64,000 nucleotides of DNA from Accumulibacter sp. (GCA_031257115.1 JAIRPF010000075.1:1-64000), one strand, 5' to 3'; counted from the stretch's first letter, positions 522 through 9,090 are shown. The notes: generated by a model from the sequence alone, not told the origin. Program-made: numbers and translations.

Positions 522-3020
522 ATGCTACACAAACTCAAAGAGGTCGGATCGGATGGAACGCAATACGAATGGAGCGATGCCTCCGATGGGGGCTCCGGAT
601 TATTCGACGAATCGGGGAAACTGATCCGCCGTGTCCAGCGTGAACGCTGCCATGCCGCGGCGAAGGCGGCCAAGGAATTCCTGCTCAACGCACCGCAGAA
701 GATCGATACCGAACGCTTGTCCTATTTGCTCGAAGCCTACCGGGAATTCGACTACGAGCCGCCGGTCGTCCTGCGCGCGCGGCTCTTCGACAACCTGCTC
801 CGGGGCAAACGGCTCTTCCTCGACGACAATCCGATCGCCGGCACGGTCACCAGTCACCCCGCCGGCGTCTATATCTATCCCGAATGGGATTCGGAGTGGA
901 TCATCAAGGAAATCAACCAGGCGATGATGAGCCACCTCGGCAAGATCGACATTTCGAAGGAAGAAAAACAACTGATGCTCGAAGCCTCGCGCTTTTTCAA
1001 GGATCGGAGCGCCTCGGCCAAGGCCAAGCGGCTCGCCAAACAGCTCTACGGCTGGAGTCCGCACGATTTCACCGAGGCCGGGCTGTTCACCGAGGGCGCG
1101 ACCTTCACCAAGGGCGCGGGCAACGTCGATTATGAGAGTTTCATCAACCGCGGACTCGGCGCGATCATCGAGGAGACGGAAGAGCGCCTGCGTGCGCTAA
1201 GCGTCACCGCCAAGAACAGCCAGAAAATCGACTTTTATCGCGCGGCGCTCATCACTCTGCGCGCCGTCATCCATCTCGCGCACCGCTATGCCGACCTGGC
1301 CGGGCAAACGGCGGAGGCCACCGGCGACCCGGTGCGCAAGGCCGAGCTGCTGGAGATCGCCGAAGTTTGTCGGCATGTGCCCGAAAATCCACCGCGCAAT
1401 TTCCGCGAGGCCGTGCAGTCATGGTGGTTCCTGCATCTCGGCATCCAGATCGAACAGGGCGGCTGCGGTTCCTCGCCGGGACGCATCGGCCAATATCTCG
1501 ACCGCTATTACCAGCTCGACAAGGCGGACGGCGGCACGCCCGATGACGCCGTCGGCTGGCTCAAGTGCCTGTTCGTCAAGATTCTCGAATTCGGCTATTA
1601 CCAGGGGATCACCTATTCCAAGATACTTTCCGGGCATACGGGGCATACGATCAACGTCGGCGGCTTCGACGCGCGCGGCGAGGACGCGACGACCGATCTC
1701 GACTATCTCATCCTGGATACGCAGATCGATCTGCGCAACATTCAGCCGACGATCACCGTGCTGTATCACGACAAGCTAAAGGAGGATTTCCTGCTCAAGG
1801 CCATCGACCTCGAACGGACGGGCCTCGGCCAGCCGCAGTGGATGAACACGCGCGTCATCACCGAACGATTGCTCGCGCGGCACGCCAGGAACGGCATCAC
1901 GCTCAAGGACGCGCGCAACTGCATCAACATGAGCTGCGTCGGCACGGGCGTTGCCGGCAAGACGGCCTTTGTCTCCGAAAACATGACCTTCAACCTAGCC
2001 AAGTGCTTCGAACTGGCGATCAATGATGGCTTCGACCCATTGACCCAAAAGCAGCTTGGCCCACACACCGGCGGCGCCGAATCCTTTGCCGATTTCGAGT
2101 CTTTTTTCGCCGCCTATAGCGCGCAGGTCAAGAATCTCTTCGAACGCATCCGCCCCTACGGCTCGATCGGTAGCAAGGCGATCGGCGACACGGTCCCCGG
2201 CGCGTTCCGCTCGGCGATGTACGGCGGCTGTCTCGAACGCGGCGAGGGCGAACAACAGGGCGGCACCGATTATTACCTCTATTTCGTCATCAGTACCGCC
2301 GGTGTCGATGCCGCCAACTCGCTGGCGGCGGTCAAACATCTGGTGTTCGATACCCGCCAGTTAAGCATACGGCAACTCACCGAGGCGCTGGCCGCCGACT
2401 TCGAGGGGCATGAAGACATCCGCCTGCTGTGCCTCAACGCGCCCAAGCACGGTAATGGCGATCCGGAAGTCGATGCGCTCGTGCGCCGTGTCTATGACGA
2501 TGCAATAGATCGTTTCCACGAGGTGGGCGGTGGTTTCTTCGGGGATCACATCGCCAACATCGAAGCCTATTCGTTGACCATTCACAATTACTTCGGCATG
2601 TTGACCGGCGCCCTGCCGACGGGGCGGCGGAAAGGCAAACCGCTGACCGACGCGAGCGTCTCGGCGATGCCGGGGACGGACAAGAAAGGCCCGCTGGCGT
2701 TGATCGCCTCCGCCGCGCAGGCGCTCGATACCGTCCGTTACGGCTCCAACCATTTCAACATGAAATTCCATCCGGGCGCGATCCAGGGGATCGCCGGCGC
2801 GCGCAAGCTGCTGGCGCTGATAAAAACCTACATGGATCTCGGCGGCTCCCACATCCAGTTCAATATCGTCAGTTCCGAGACATTGAAGAACGCGCAGGAA
2901 ACGCCGGAGGAATACCGCGACCTGACGGTGCGGGTGGCGGGATTTTCGGCGTATTTCACGCGCCTGCACGAAGGCGTCCAGGACGAGTTGATCGCCCGGA
3001 CGGAACTTTCGTTTTCCTGA
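522..3020 (+). CDS. Glycyl radical enzyme (pyruvate formate-lyase-like superfamily), substrate unknown
   Basis: C-terminal glycyl radical motif VRVAGFSAYF; candidate thiyl Cys in NCINMSCVGTG; activase gene downstream; AGGAG Shine-Dalgarno 7 nt before ATG at 522 (the track start at 504 is less likely). Confidence 0.9.
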   Translation: MLHKLKEVGSDGTQYEWSDASDGGSGLFDESGKLIRRVQRERCHAAAKAAKEFLLNAPQKIDTERLSYLLEAYREFDYEPPVVLRARLFDNLLRGKRLFLDDNPIAGTVTSHPAGVYIYPEWDSEWIIKEINQAMMSHLGKIDISKEEKQLMLEASRFFKDRSASAKAKRLAKQLYGWSPHDFTEAGLFTEGATFTKGAGNVDYESFINRGLGAIIEETEERLRALSVTAKNSQKIDFYRAALITLRAVIHLAHRYADLAGQTAEATGDPVRKAELLEIAEVCRHVPENPPRNFREAVQSWWFLHLGIQIEQGGCGSSPGRIGQYLDRYYQLDKADGGTPDDAVGWLKCLFVKILEFGYYQGITYSKILSGHTGHTINVGGFDARGEDATTDLDYLILDTQIDLRNIQPTITVLYHDKLKEDFLLKAIDLERTGLGQPQWMNTRVITERLLARHARNGITLKDARNCINMSCVGTGVAGKTAFVSENMTFNLAKCFELAINDGFDPLTQKQLGPHTGGAESFADFESFFAAYSAQVKNLFERIRPYGSIGSKAIGDTVPGAFRSAMYGGCLERGEGEQQGGTDYYLYFVISTAGVDAANSLAAVKHLVFDTRQLSIRQLTEALAADFEGHEDIRLLCLNAPKHGNGDPEVDALVRRVYDDAIDRFHEVGGGFFGDHIANIEAYSLTIHNYFGMLTGALPTGRRKGKPLTDASVSAMPGTDKKGPLALIASAAQALDTVRYGSNHFNMKFHPGAIQGIAGARKLLALIKTYMDLGGSHIQFNIVSSETLKNAQETPEEYRDLTVRVAGFSAYFTRLHEGVQDELIARTELSFS

Positions 3021-3033
3021 AAGGAGGAGAAAA

Positions 3034-3330
3034 GTGGAAGTGACGAAAGAAGCGCGCGAGAAACTGCTGGAATTCCTCGAAGATTATGGAGACGGTGGTT
3101 TCGTGCGCGTGGCGAGGCTTGTTACCGGCGGCGGATGTTGCGCCAATATCCGTCTCGGTGCCAGTCTGGATGAAGACCATGACGAGGAAAAAGACATGCT
3201 GTTCACGCTCGAAGGACTGCCGGTCGTGATCGAAAAAAGCGTCCATGCGGCGTTTTCGGAGATACGCATCGCCTTCGACGAAAACGATGGCATCGTCGTT
3301 TCGAGCGGCGGGCCGGCGGCCGTGAAATGA
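3034..3330 (+). CDS. HesB/IscA-like small protein, divergent
   Basis: TGGGCCANIRLG and LPVVIEKSVHAAFSEIRIAFDENDGIVVSS resemble the HesB/IscA fold; strong RBS AAAGGAGGAG; GTG start; C-terminal CGCG motif absent. Confidence 0.6.
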   Translation: MEVTKEAREKLLEFLEDYGDGGFVRVARLVTGGGCCANIRLGASLDEDHDEEKDMLFTLEGLPVVIEKSVHAAFSEIRIAFDENDGIVVSSGGPAAVK

Positions 3331-3376
3331 CAGTCAAGGGGCGGGCACGCCGGTCCGCCCCCGAGGATTCCACGAT

Positions 3377-4282
3377 ATGAGTGCCACGGAAGGCATCGTC
3401 TTCGACATCCAGCATTTCAGCCTGCACGACGGCCCAGGTGTCCGCTCGACGGTCTTTCTCAAAGGATGCCCGTTGAGCTGCCTGTGGTGCGGCAACCCGG
3501 AATCGCAGGACACGCGGCCGCAGCTGATGTTCTTTCCACATCTTTGCGCCGCCTGTGGCGCTTGCATGAAGGTCTGTCCGCGGCAAGCCATGACGCTCGG
3601 CGAAAACGGCCCGCGCTTCGATCCCGGCCGATGCGCCGCCTGTGGGAGTTGTGTGCCCCATTGTTTACGCGGCGCGCGCAGCCTGTCCGGAAAATCGATG
3701 GACGTAAAAGAGATCGGTGAAGAAGTGCGCCAGCACTGGCGCATCTTCCAGCAGAGCGGAGGCGGAGTCACGGTGAGCGGCGGCGAGCCGCTCGCGCAGA
3801 AAAATTTCCTGCACGCATTGTTAAGAGAGTTGCACGACGAAGCCGGCTTGCACACCTGCCTGGATACCTGCGCCAAGGCCCCCTGGCCGGTACTCGAACA
3901 CCTGCTGCCCCGCCTCGATCTGGTATTGCTCGACATCAAGCACATGGACGATACCGCGCACCGGAAATGGACCGGCGCCGGAAATACCGACATCATTGCC
4001 AACGCGAGAAAACTTGCCGAAAGCTCCGTCGATGTGCTGGTACGCATTCCGCTGATTCCGGATTTCAACGACAGTGACGAGAGCCTCTCCGCATTCGGAA
4101 AATTCCTGCGCGAGATTGGCCTCGACCGCATCGAAATCATGCCCTATCACACACTCGGTCTTTCCAAATACCGGGCGCTGGACAAGGATTACGCGCTTTC
4201 GCCAGGCGTGAAACCCAGGCTTGACGAAGCCGTCGATATGCTGACCGGGTTCGGGCTTGAAATCACGGTCCATCGGCATTGA
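3377..4282 (+). CDS. Glycyl-radical enzyme activating enzyme (radical SAM with ferredoxin insert)
   Basis: DGPGVRSTVFLKGCPLSCLWCGNPES radical-SAM CxxxCxxC plus two CxxCxxCxxxC clusters (CAACGACMKVCP, CAACGSCVPHC). Confidence 0.95.
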   Translation: MSATEGIVFDIQHFSLHDGPGVRSTVFLKGCPLSCLWCGNPESQDTRPQLMFFPHLCAACGACMKVCPRQAMTLGENGPRFDPGRCAACGSCVPHCLRGARSLSGKSMDVKEIGEEVRQHWRIFQQSGGGVTVSGGEPLAQKNFLHALLRELHDEAGLHTCLDTCAKAPWPVLEHLLPRLDLVLLDIKHMDDTAHRKWTGAGNTDIIANARKLAESSVDVLVRIPLIPDFNDSDESLSAFGKFLREIGLDRIEIMPYHTLGLSKYRALDKDYALSPGVKPRLDEAVDMLTGFGLEITVHRH

Positions 4283-4541: not shown

Positions 4542-5630
4542 ATGATGAAAGCAAGACAACGACGGTTCGCGCCAATCCTTTTGGCAAGCGCCTTCTGGGT
4601 GTTCACGGGGATGGCCGGGGCGGAGGACAAGCCCCCTGAAAGCATCAATCTGCAATTGCAGACCTGGACAGCGATCGCGGATGCCAGAGGCATTCTCAAG
4701 GAAGAATTCGGCAAGGTTGGCGTCAACAGGGTCAACCTGATCGCGCAGTCGTCGGGCGAACTGCTCGGCGCGGAAAGCGCGGCGGTCGGCGGCGGTACGC
4801 TGGCCTTCGCCCAGCGCATGGTCTATCCCGCCTTCGTGCAAAAGGCCAATGGCATCCCGGCGGTGATCGTCTGGCTCTCCGAGGCGTCCAACCGCTACCG
4901 CACGCCGATCTTCGTCTCGGCGGCGAACAAGGACATCAACACCATCGCCGACCTCGACGGCAAGAAGTTCGGTTCGTCGCGTATTTCGTGCTATTGGTCG
5001 GCGCCGTTCGAAATTCTCAACAACGCCGGCATTCCGCTCGACAGCCGCCTGAAAAAGGGCCGCGTGCGCTATGAAAACATCGAAAGCCCGGCGGTGGCCA
5101 TCCAGGCGCTGCTTTCCGGCGAAAAGGACGCGACGGCCGGGCATCTGGCGGCGAATCACTTCACCGCCGCCTACCTGCAAGGCAAGTTCAAGAAAATCGG
5201 AGGGCCTTCCGACACGGGCGTTTACGTAAATTACGGCGGACGGGTGAGTTATTTCGCGCACAAGGATTTTGCCGCCAAATACCCGAACGTGGTCAAGGCT
5301 TTCCTGGCCAGCCGGGAACGCGCGCGGGATTGGACTTATGACAATGTCGACGAGGCGGCCAAGATCGTTTCCAAAGCGCTGCGCATTCCTGAAGACGTGG
5401 CGAAATTCCAGATCACCCACCTGGGGCAGTGGGATTTCATGGCCGGCGAGCCTGACGCGGACAAGGCGCGCCACGCGATCAAGGAATTCCAGAAGTGGTA
5501 CGTGGCGAACGGCGACGACATTCTCGTCGACAAGCAACTGAGCGATGCCCAGATCGACGAATTCATCGACGGGAAGTTCTTCGCGGGCGGCTCGCATTCG
5601 ATCTACAGCGACAAATACTCGGCGTATTGA
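4542..5630 (+). CDS. NitT/TauT-family ABC transporter substrate-binding protein
   Basis: Signal peptide, SBP-like translation, followed by permease and ATPase genes. Confidence 0.8.
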   Translation: MMKARQRRFAPILLASAFWVFTGMAGAEDKPPESINLQLQTWTAIADARGILKEEFGKVGVNRVNLIAQSSGELLGAESAAVGGGTLAFAQRMVYPAFVQKANGIPAVIVWLSEASNRYRTPIFVSAANKDINTIADLDGKKFGSSRISCYWSAPFEILNNAGIPLDSRLKKGRVRYENIESPAVAIQALLSGEKDATAGHLAANHFTAAYLQGKFKKIGGPSDTGVYVNYGGRVSYFAHKDFAAKYPNVVKAFLASRERARDWTYDNVDEAAKIVSKALRIPEDVAKFQITHLGQWDFMAGEPDADKARHAIKEFQKWYVANGDDILVDKQLSDAQIDEFIDGKFFAGGSHSIYSDKYSAY

Positions 5631-5678
5631 AATGCCGTCGGGATGATCCTGGAGAAGGCGGACAACGACTGATAGGAC

Positions 5679-6566
5679 ATGGAGAACATGGAGAAAAAAC
5701 AGCAACTCGGTTACGCGGTTCCCTCTGGGGTGCTTTATGTTCCCACGGTCTCCGCGCCGAAAGTGGTCACGGCCGCGCTTTCCAGGATAAAGACTTTTTT
5801 TACCGGACAGCGCTATGTCGGCGCGCTCCTGCCGCTGCTGATCCTGGGCCTGTGGCAGGCGTCGGCGAGCTTCGTCTGGATCGAGCCGGTTTTCCTGCCC
5901 GCGCCGGTCAAGGTCGTCGAAGCTTTCTGGTACATGCTGATCAAGCAGGATTTGCTCAGGGACATCTGGGCCAGCGTATTCATCATCGCGCAAGCCTTCG
6001 CCTACGGCACGCTGCTCGGCGTCGGCCTGGGCTTCGCGGCCGGGCTGTCGCGCAAGATGGAACTGTTCTTCAGCGGCACGATCAATACGATCCGCCATAT
6101 CCCGACGGTCGCCTGGATTCCCCTGGTCGTCATCTGGCTGGGATTGGGCGCGCCCGCCAAGATCGTGGTGCTCGCCAAATCGATCTTCATTCCGGTATTC
6201 CTGAACACCCTGCAAGCCATCCGTGGCGTCGACCATAACTTCATCGAACTGGCGCGGGCATTGAAACTGACCAAGCGGCAATTGATCCGCCGCGTGATCC
6301 TGCCGGCGATCCTGCCCGTGGTCATGGTGACGCTCCGCTATTCGGTGGGACTGTCCTGGGCATTGGTGGTGGTTGCCGAGGGCATCAGCGGCCTGGAGGG
6401 TCTGGGCTTTCTCATCTTCCGCGCTCAGAACCTGCTGATGACCGACCAACTCCTGGTGTGCATGGTTCTGATCGGGGTGATCGGCTACGCCCTCGACCGT
6501 TTGCTGTACCTGGCGCAACAACGGCTTTTGCGCTGGCAGCGCGGTTTTGGGGGCAGCTATGCTTGA
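5679..6566 (+). CDS. ABC transporter permease (NitT/TauT family)
   Basis: Hydrophobic protein with permease motif (TVAWIPLVVIWLGLGAPAKIVV...NTLQAIRGVDHNFIELARALKLTKRQLIRRVILPAILP). Confidence 0.9.
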   Translation: MENMEKKQQLGYAVPSGVLYVPTVSAPKVVTAALSRIKTFFTGQRYVGALLPLLILGLWQASASFVWIEPVFLPAPVKVVEAFWYMLIKQDLLRDIWASVFIIAQAFAYGTLLGVGLGFAAGLSRKMELFFSGTINTIRHIPTVAWIPLVVIWLGLGAPAKIVVLAKSIFIPVFLNTLQAIRGVDHNFIELARALKLTKRQLIRRVILPAILPVVMVTLRYSVGLSWALVVVAEGISGLEGLGFLIFRAQNLLMTDQLLVCMVLIGVIGYALDRLLYLAQQRLLRWQRGFGGSYA

Positions 6567-7323
6567 AGCGCGCAACGTCACCCGGCGTTTCGGTGATTTC
6601 GTCGCCCTGCATGACACGGCGCTCGACGTCGGTGAAGGCGAATTTGTCACCATCGTTGGCGCGAGCGGCTGCGGCAAGACGACGCTCCTGCGGCTGATCG
6701 CCGGACTCGATCAGGACTATACGGGTGAAATCACACTGAACGGCCAGCGGATCGTGGGTACCAGCCTGGAGCGCGGCATCGTCTTCCAGGAGCCGCGCCT
6801 GCTGCCTTGGCTGGACCTCTGGGACAATATCGCCATCGCGCTCGACAACGCGCCGCTCTCGAACACGGCAAAAAAAGAGGCCGTCGCCGCGCAAATCGCG
6901 CTCGTCGGCCTGACCGGTTTCGAGCGCGCCTATCCCTCCGCGCTGAGCGGCGGCATGGCGCAACGCGCCGCGATTGCCCGCGCCTTGGTGGGTCATCCTT
7001 CGATCCTGTTGCTTGACGAGCCGCTCGGCGCGCTCGACGCGATTACCCGTATGCGCTTGCAGGAAGAGTTGCTGCGCATCTGGCGGCATGAAGGCGTCAG
7101 CATGATCCTGGTCACGCATGACGTTGAGGAGGCCATCTTCCTGAGCAAGAAGATCGTCGTGATGGATTCGAGGCCGGGCCGGGTAACGGCGAATATCGCG
7201 GTAGACCTGCCCATGCCCAGGGATCGCTCGTCGGCGGACTTCGGCGCGCTCAAGCGCAAGATTTTTGACGCGCTGCACGACAATGCGGCCGTGCGGTTGC
7301 CGGAAGCCGAATACGCTATCTAA
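6559..7323 (+). CDS. ABC transporter ATP-binding protein (NitT/TauT family)
   Basis: Walker A GASGCGKTT, signature LSGGMAQR, Walker B SILLLDEPLG; ATG at 6559 overlaps permease end. Confidence 0.95.
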   Translation: MLEARNVTRRFGDFVALHDTALDVGEGEFVTIVGASGCGKTTLLRLIAGLDQDYTGEITLNGQRIVGTSLERGIVFQEPRLLPWLDLWDNIAIALDNAPLSNTAKKEAVAAQIALVGLTGFERAYPSALSGGMAQRAAIARALVGHPSILLLDEPLGALDAITRMRLQEELLRIWRHEGVSMILVTHDVEEAIFLSKKIVVMDSRPGRVTANIAVDLPMPRDRSSADFGALKRKIFDALHDNAAVRLPEAEYAI

Positions 7324-8524: not shown

Positions 8525-9090
8525 CGTTGACCACGACGGATATGGTGAACACGGCGAAAGACATGAAAGCAGAAGATTTTCTGGTTTTCGCCCATGACAG
8601 TTCCATTTGCAATGACCCGCAAGGGGCGGCACCCCTCTCCCGTCATTGCGAGGCGCGCGGCGCCGTGGCAATCCAGAATGACCGGGATCGGGAAGGGACT
8701 GGATTGCTTCGCTTCGCTCGCAATGACGGCCGGGGCGTTTCATATTACATATCGGATGATTTCGAATGAACTTGTCATGGTTTTCTTTCGTCGTATCCTC
8801 CGTGGCTGGAAAGCGTTAACCACGGCGAACACGGCGAAAGACATGAAAGCAGAAGATTTTCTGGTTTTCGCCCCTGGCGATTCCATTTGCAATGACCCGC
8901 AAGGGGCAGCGTCCCGCTCTCGTCATTGCGAGGCGCGCGGCGCCGTGGCAATCCAGAATGACCGGGATCGGGAAGGGACTGGATTGCTTCGCTTCGCTCG
9001 CAATGACGGCCGGGGCGTTTCATATTGCATATCGGATGATTTCGGGTGAACTTGTCATGGTTTTCTTTCGCCGCATCCGCCGTGCTTTCA
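8525..9090. repeat. Direct duplication of ~290-bp composite intergenic unit
   Basis: 8525-8811 and 8815-9090 nearly identical; each contains CGTCATTGCGAGGCGCGCGGCGCCGTGGCAATCCAG...GGATTGCTTCGCTTCGCTCGCAATGACGG. Confidence 0.95.

Follow-up and report, generated by a model that had tools for sequence, protein, structure and literature searches.

Glycyl radical enzymes (GREs) count among the principal catalysts by which difficult bonds are broken in the absence of oxygen; in one of them, the isethionate sulfite-lyase (IslA/IseG), the sulfonate-binding residues are Arg189, Gln193 and Arg678. A CxE motif, in which a Glu lies two residues past the thiyl-radical Cys, is a conserved feature of the GRE eliminases; in IslA the motif reads Cys-Ile-Glu, and Glu470 is needed, E470Q being inactivating (PMC8473560). 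Among Fe-S proteins, the A-type carriers IscA, SufA and ErpA combine a conserved N-terminal Cys with a C-terminal CxC. Exchange of Cys for selenocysteine (Sec) is described for a HesB-like selenoprotein family, TIGR01911, with the motif UxGP (PMC1794560, PMC13188914); the 2026 review of prokaryotic selenoproteins describes HesB-like proteins by that motif, and the family NF033940 is absent from its text (PMC13188914). We found no literature tying a GRE to HesB or a HesB-like protein, nor any assigned reaction for the GRE clade described here.

The window, a stretch of 64,000 nucleotides from Accumulibacter sp. (GCA_031257115.1 JAIRPF010000075.1:1-64000), carries three genes in order on its plus strand: a GRE of 832 residues (522-3020), a HesB/IscA-fold protein of 98 residues (3034-3330) and a radical-SAM GRE activase of 301 residues (3377-4282). 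The gaps are 13 nt between the GRE and the HesB-like gene and 46 nt between the latter and the activase gene. The best start for the GRE is the ATG at 522, preceded by AGGAG; the HesB-like gene starts with GTG at 3034 behind a strong GGAGG, and the activase with ATG at 3377. The activase scores 323.6 bits for the GRE-activating-protein subfamily (cut-off 174), and CxxxCxxC plus two ferredoxin-like Cys groups can be read in its sequence. The first-pass annotation had described these genes as tightly packed, in this order and with ribosome-binding sites, which coordinates, profiles and fold bear out. Chance overlap was rejected as an explanation, because the same gene order recurs in independent genomes and because the GRE and the HesB-like gene were found in the identical 6 of 29 genomes of the window's genus. 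Downstream on the same strand lies an Ssu/Tau-type ABC importer (4542-7323) absent from that annotation. By profiles it comprises an NMT1/SsuA-like substrate-binding protein (4542-5630), a conserved neighbour whose signal peptide was recognised by eye; by profiles and neighbourhood, a SaoP/SsuC/TauC-like permease (5679-6566) and a TauB/SaoA/SsuB-like ATPase (6547-7323). Two 261-bp direct repeats farther along (8544-8804 and 8824-9084), 94% identical and spaced 280 bp, contain a CGTCATTGCGAGG...CGCAATGACGG motif. A sigma-54 site was sought ahead of the window GRE and not found; a perfect sigma-54 consensus precedes the GRE at three other loci (L007 at 7863, L009 at 7896 and L098 at 8227).

The GRE belongs to the PFL-like superfamily: a profile search matched the PFL-like (E 5e-148) and Gly_radical (E 2e-27) domains, and the protein has the RVxGF/Y glycine motif and a thiyl Cys. 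Its structure model (pLDDT 88) comes closest to glycerol dehydratase among solved structures, with the whole fold of 1r8w superposing at TM 0.93 and about 32% identity. No NCBIfam GRE equivalog (HypD, CutC, HpsG/HpfG, IAD, HPAD and others) was reached, the best score being 461.6 of 1100 bits, and IslA is not the nearest relative by score. In a FastTree tree the GRE falls in a clade of 38 sequences (support 0.992), none of them a characterised member. Its close relatives come from MAGs named Accumulibacter and Azoarcus, from Telmatospirillum siberiense and Rhodomicrobium udaipurense, and from Desulfovibrio and Solidesulfovibrio MAGs; the GRE of Candidatus Formimonas warabiya DCMF is a relative at 47%. 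The MAGs with isolate codes presumably come from termite guts; hosts of the clade comprise these proteobacteria, purple bacteria and Desulfovibrionales. In the order to which one Desulfovibrio MAG belongs, a sister group (about 50% identity) is common, and 35 of 247 sampled genomes, roughly one in seven of the sampled Desulfovibrionales, hold a member of the wider clade. Because a sample of 399 genomes from the window's phylum held the GRE in the window's own genome only, clade members were drawn from genome contigs and orders of relatives. In a plasmid search all GREs were below 60% identity, at about 24-41% among the matches listed. A group neighbouring the clade (L018, L019, L020 and L021) has CVQ or CIQ loops and sometimes two GREs per locus; by eye, its GREs adjoin acyl-CoA dehydrogenase, amidohydrolase-like or Bcr-like genes.

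The active site separates this clade from the CxE eliminases. With glycerol dehydratase (B12-independent) and the CxE eliminases (HypD, CutC, diol dehydratase) it shares the glycyl-radical motif, the position of the thiyl Cys and the activase type. By profile and alignment the radical-bearing residue is Gly807 (codon 2940-2942, within RVAGFSAYF), and by alignment the thiyl-radical residue is Cys472 (codon 1935-1937). In contrast to the eliminases, the loop reads CVGTG instead of CxE: all 38 clade members have Gly, Ser, Ala or Thr two positions past the thiyl Cys (Gly in the window), so that the Cys-Ile-Glu of IslA becomes CVG/S/A/T and its catalytic Glu470 has no counterpart. Since CxE is conserved in GRE eliminases and its Glu is replaced throughout the clade, the clade does not appear to be an eliminase. 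Moreover, Cys315 (codon 1464-1466) aligns with His281 of glycerol dehydratase, an active-site residue of that enzyme, and this position is Cys in 38 of 38 members. C315 is thus a second invariant Cys at an active-site position, and from the alignment it is predicted to face the substrate. A further difference from the CxE eliminases is the extra HesB-like gene.

Of the 38 clade loci, 31 have that gene beside the GRE, as determined by profile search of the loci together with the tree. Six loci without it (L008, L011, L012b, L013, L099 and L100) group together in one nested sub-clade (support 1.0), pointing to one loss event; the seventh, L006, ends directly after the GRE. In ten loci whose GREs lie outside the clade (L018-L027), a profile search found no HesB-like gene. 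The usual order in Desulfovibrionales is GRE, activase, partner, at times with two partners. The nested sub-clade does without the HesB-like gene, so the chemistry does not depend on the partner. The two claims on which the first-pass annotation staked the locus held up: the GRE lies far under every equivalog cut-off and outside every characterised clade, and the small gene is kept in most loci with an orthologous GRE. We are highly confident that these GREs form a conserved clade that is uncharacterised and has a dedicated partner. Such a small, Cys/Sec-exchanging partner is unusual for a GRE, and through it a family with the IscA fold would acquire a role beyond Fe-S delivery.

The partner is recognisable mainly by its fold. 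It scores 20.6 bits with Pfam Fe-S_biosyn (below the 26.3 cut-off) and 50.7 bits with NCBIfam ErpA_rel (NF033940; below the 65 cut-off), and phmmer against PDB sequences gave chance matches only, so a fold search was needed. The AlphaFold2 model (pLDDT 86) has Escherichia coli IscA (1s98) as its closest solved fold, at TM 0.79; the matches also include the IscA-like DsrR of Allochromatium. Two other identities were considered and rejected: a spare glycyl-radical domain, for which there was no match, and a Bss-type small subunit, the fold being that of IscA. (By eye, neither the window nor the loci showed a recognisable gene for a Bss/Ass/Mas-type small accessory subunit near the GRE.) With the A-type carriers the partner shares the fold and the N-terminal conserved Cys, Cys35 in the window (codon 3136-3138), but not the C-terminal CxC. 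Indeed, across 36 aligned homologues a single column is Cys (24) or TGA (12), and neither a second invariant Cys nor a CxC motif is present. The partner of L096, which is weak and lacks the Cys, enters the presence count solely on its profile match and stands outside the 36; that of L016 (1875-2147), a pseudogene or assembly error with an in-frame TAG close to its start, was excluded from the counts.

The TGA codons occur in the partner genes of L082-L092 and of DCMF (L028), where a mid-gene stop falls at the position of the window Cys35 and is TGA in 12 of 12. The Sec-type partner reads VGGG-U-HAKIVLGLG, compared with TGGG-C-HSKIVLGLG in one of the Cys paralogues. All 12 genomes with a TGA partner have a tRNA-Sec, at 65-88 bits, whereas genomes with the Cys form only, such as G855, G706, G711 and G713, reach about 50 bits at most. 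The in-frame TGA at the Cys position and the genomic tRNA-Sec thus mark the partner as a predicted selenoprotein in these 12 relatives; the window genome has a tRNA-Sec as well (76.4 bits), yet its partner gene has a Cys codon at this position. Downstream of the TGA, at a distance of 18 nt in 11 of 12, lies a hairpin whose loop is GGUCU, but the hairpin also stands in two Cys paralogues, so it supports a SECIS element weakly. The Cys/Sec exchange resembles that of TIGR01911; the motifs, in contrast, differ, being U-H-A-K, U-H-C-K, U-G-S-K or U-A-S-K in the GRE-linked forms instead of UxGP. A scan of three Sec forms from Desulfovibrionales gave no match to TIGR01911 and 134-145 bits with NF033940, whose cut-off is passed by 7 of 7 scanned partners of the sister sub-clade and not by the window protein. 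In two genomes, tandem HesB-like paralogues stand apart from the GRE (G709:C101:43633-44598 and G708:C28:13976-14560), and one per genome has an in-frame TGA.

These residues bear directly on what the partner might do. Because the C-terminal Cys pair is missing and the one invariant Cys is TGA in 12 relatives, we consider the HesB-like protein probably a Cys/Sec protein of redox or sulfur handling. The first-pass annotation had raised an A-type Fe-S carrier maturing or repairing the clusters of the activase. The IscA fold, the position beside a cluster-rich activase and the NF033940 name (ErpA-related iron-sulfur cluster insertion protein) are what one would expect of such a carrier, but the partner's residues do not support Fe-S insertion. 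Exchange of the remaining Cys for TGA, in genomes with tRNA-Sec, is atypical for a cluster carrier, and the six loci without the HesB-like gene have the same kind of activase. To judge from its sequence, then, the partner is unlikely to be a classical Fe-S carrier, and maturation or repair of the activase is quite unlikely as its role; what stands of the earlier interpretation is an uncharacterised GRE with a real, conserved partner. It could also be a safety device whose thiol or selenol quenches or repairs the glycyl radical after oxygen exposure or mis-turnover, as the reactive Cys or Sec and the tight linkage to the GRE might suggest. A protective function of this kind would be improbable for a protein without a GrcA-kind glycyl-radical domain that accompanies a single GRE clade, one whose active site is altered, and not GREs generally.

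All the evidence on the substrate comes from the gene neighbourhood. The window importer has the three-gene ABC layout of the Ssu/Tau aliphatic sulfonate importers and its best family-level similarity to them, its genes resembling SsuA, SsuC, TauB and Sao types; every match is below the curated cut-off, and it is partnered with an anaerobic GRE, not with SsuD/TauD. At E 0.001, no relative of the substrate-binding protein with a solved structure was found. Sulfur genes vary between loci, the window itself having the importer only. In L002, where the GRE is 86% identical, the ATG of a Cys/Met PLP enzyme lies 13 nt past the activase stop; in L013 a fusion of an Fe-S domain with O-acetylhomoserine sulfhydrylase is found downstream of the activase; and in L003 a DszC/SfnB-like gene follows the ATPase. 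A TauE/SafE exporter and an amino-acid permease occur in 9 of 16 Desulfovibrionales loci. Importer orthologues (61-63% identity) also occur in two genomes of the same order without a GRE match at E 1e-150; an NtaA/DmoA-family monooxygenase and a serine acetyltransferase (CysE) are nearby in one, and a DszC/SfnB-like gene in the other. On this neighbourhood evidence the balance tips slightly towards an organosulfur substrate. Counting against it, SsuA/TauB-type importers carry other small molecules too. The importer could instead bring in another small anion for decarboxylation, fumarate addition or a further reaction of the non-eliminase kind, which would fit a substrate-binding protein of generic NMT1-like character, the neighbours of the CVQ-loop sister clade and a DCMF locus in which no sulfur gene was recognised. 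Set against the sulfur-related neighbours in L002, L003, L013, the nine Desulfovibrionales loci and the two GRE-less genomes, such a substrate is possible but doubtful. The PLP enzymes beside the operon in L002 and L013, together with DsrR among the fold matches, might also make the partner a sulfur carrier, its Cys35 or Sec accepting the released sulfite, sulfide or thiyl for transfer to a PLP enzyme or a reductase. This is unlikely, as L013 has the PLP enzyme without the HesB-like gene.

Taken together, these features would be consistent with anaerobic C-S cleavage of an organosulfur compound by the GRE, aided by its partner, a combined reading that we advance tentatively from sequence comparison. 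The ABC importer would take up a small anion of organosulfur type, most probably one of the sulfonates, and the activase would place the glycyl radical on Gly807, giving a thiyl radical on Cys472. As in IslA, with which the GRE fold is shared, the C-S bond of an imported sulfonate would then be cleaved, here without the Glu base of the CxE eliminases; the second invariant Cys, C315, may serve instead. The one-Cys partner (one-Sec in relatives) would most likely restore the reduced Cys pair or the radical-competent GRE, or accept the released sulfur. The freed sulfur could enter Met/Cys synthesis in proteobacteria like that of the window and, possibly, sulfite respiration in Desulfovibrionales. 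For a sulfonate or thioether substrate, the system would be an oxygen-free counterpart of sulfur scavenging of the SsuD/DszA type. A more specific proposal, by rough analogy with class III ribonucleotide reductase, is a reductive, non-eliminase GRE whose C315/Cys472 pair would be oxidised in C-S cleavage and re-reduced by the dedicated Cys/Sec IscA-fold protein. We regard this as rather unlikely; if true, the GRE would have its own selenoprotein reductase, and the partner would found a new IscA-fold redox protein family.

Several loci show further arrangements of transport genes. A TRAP transporter adjoins the activase in L007 and L097. The nine Desulfovibrionales loci in which TauE/SafE and an amino-acid permease stand beside the GRE are L091 (789-4466) and eight that resemble it, six of the nine also having DUF4125; a limonene GRE whose paper mentions DUF4125 was considered and rejected, as it is a succinate synthase, 61% identical to BssA, and lies outside the clade. 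In L012 (1941-14132), one importer is flanked by two GREs, one from each sub-clade, along with two activases and a sigma-54 regulator.
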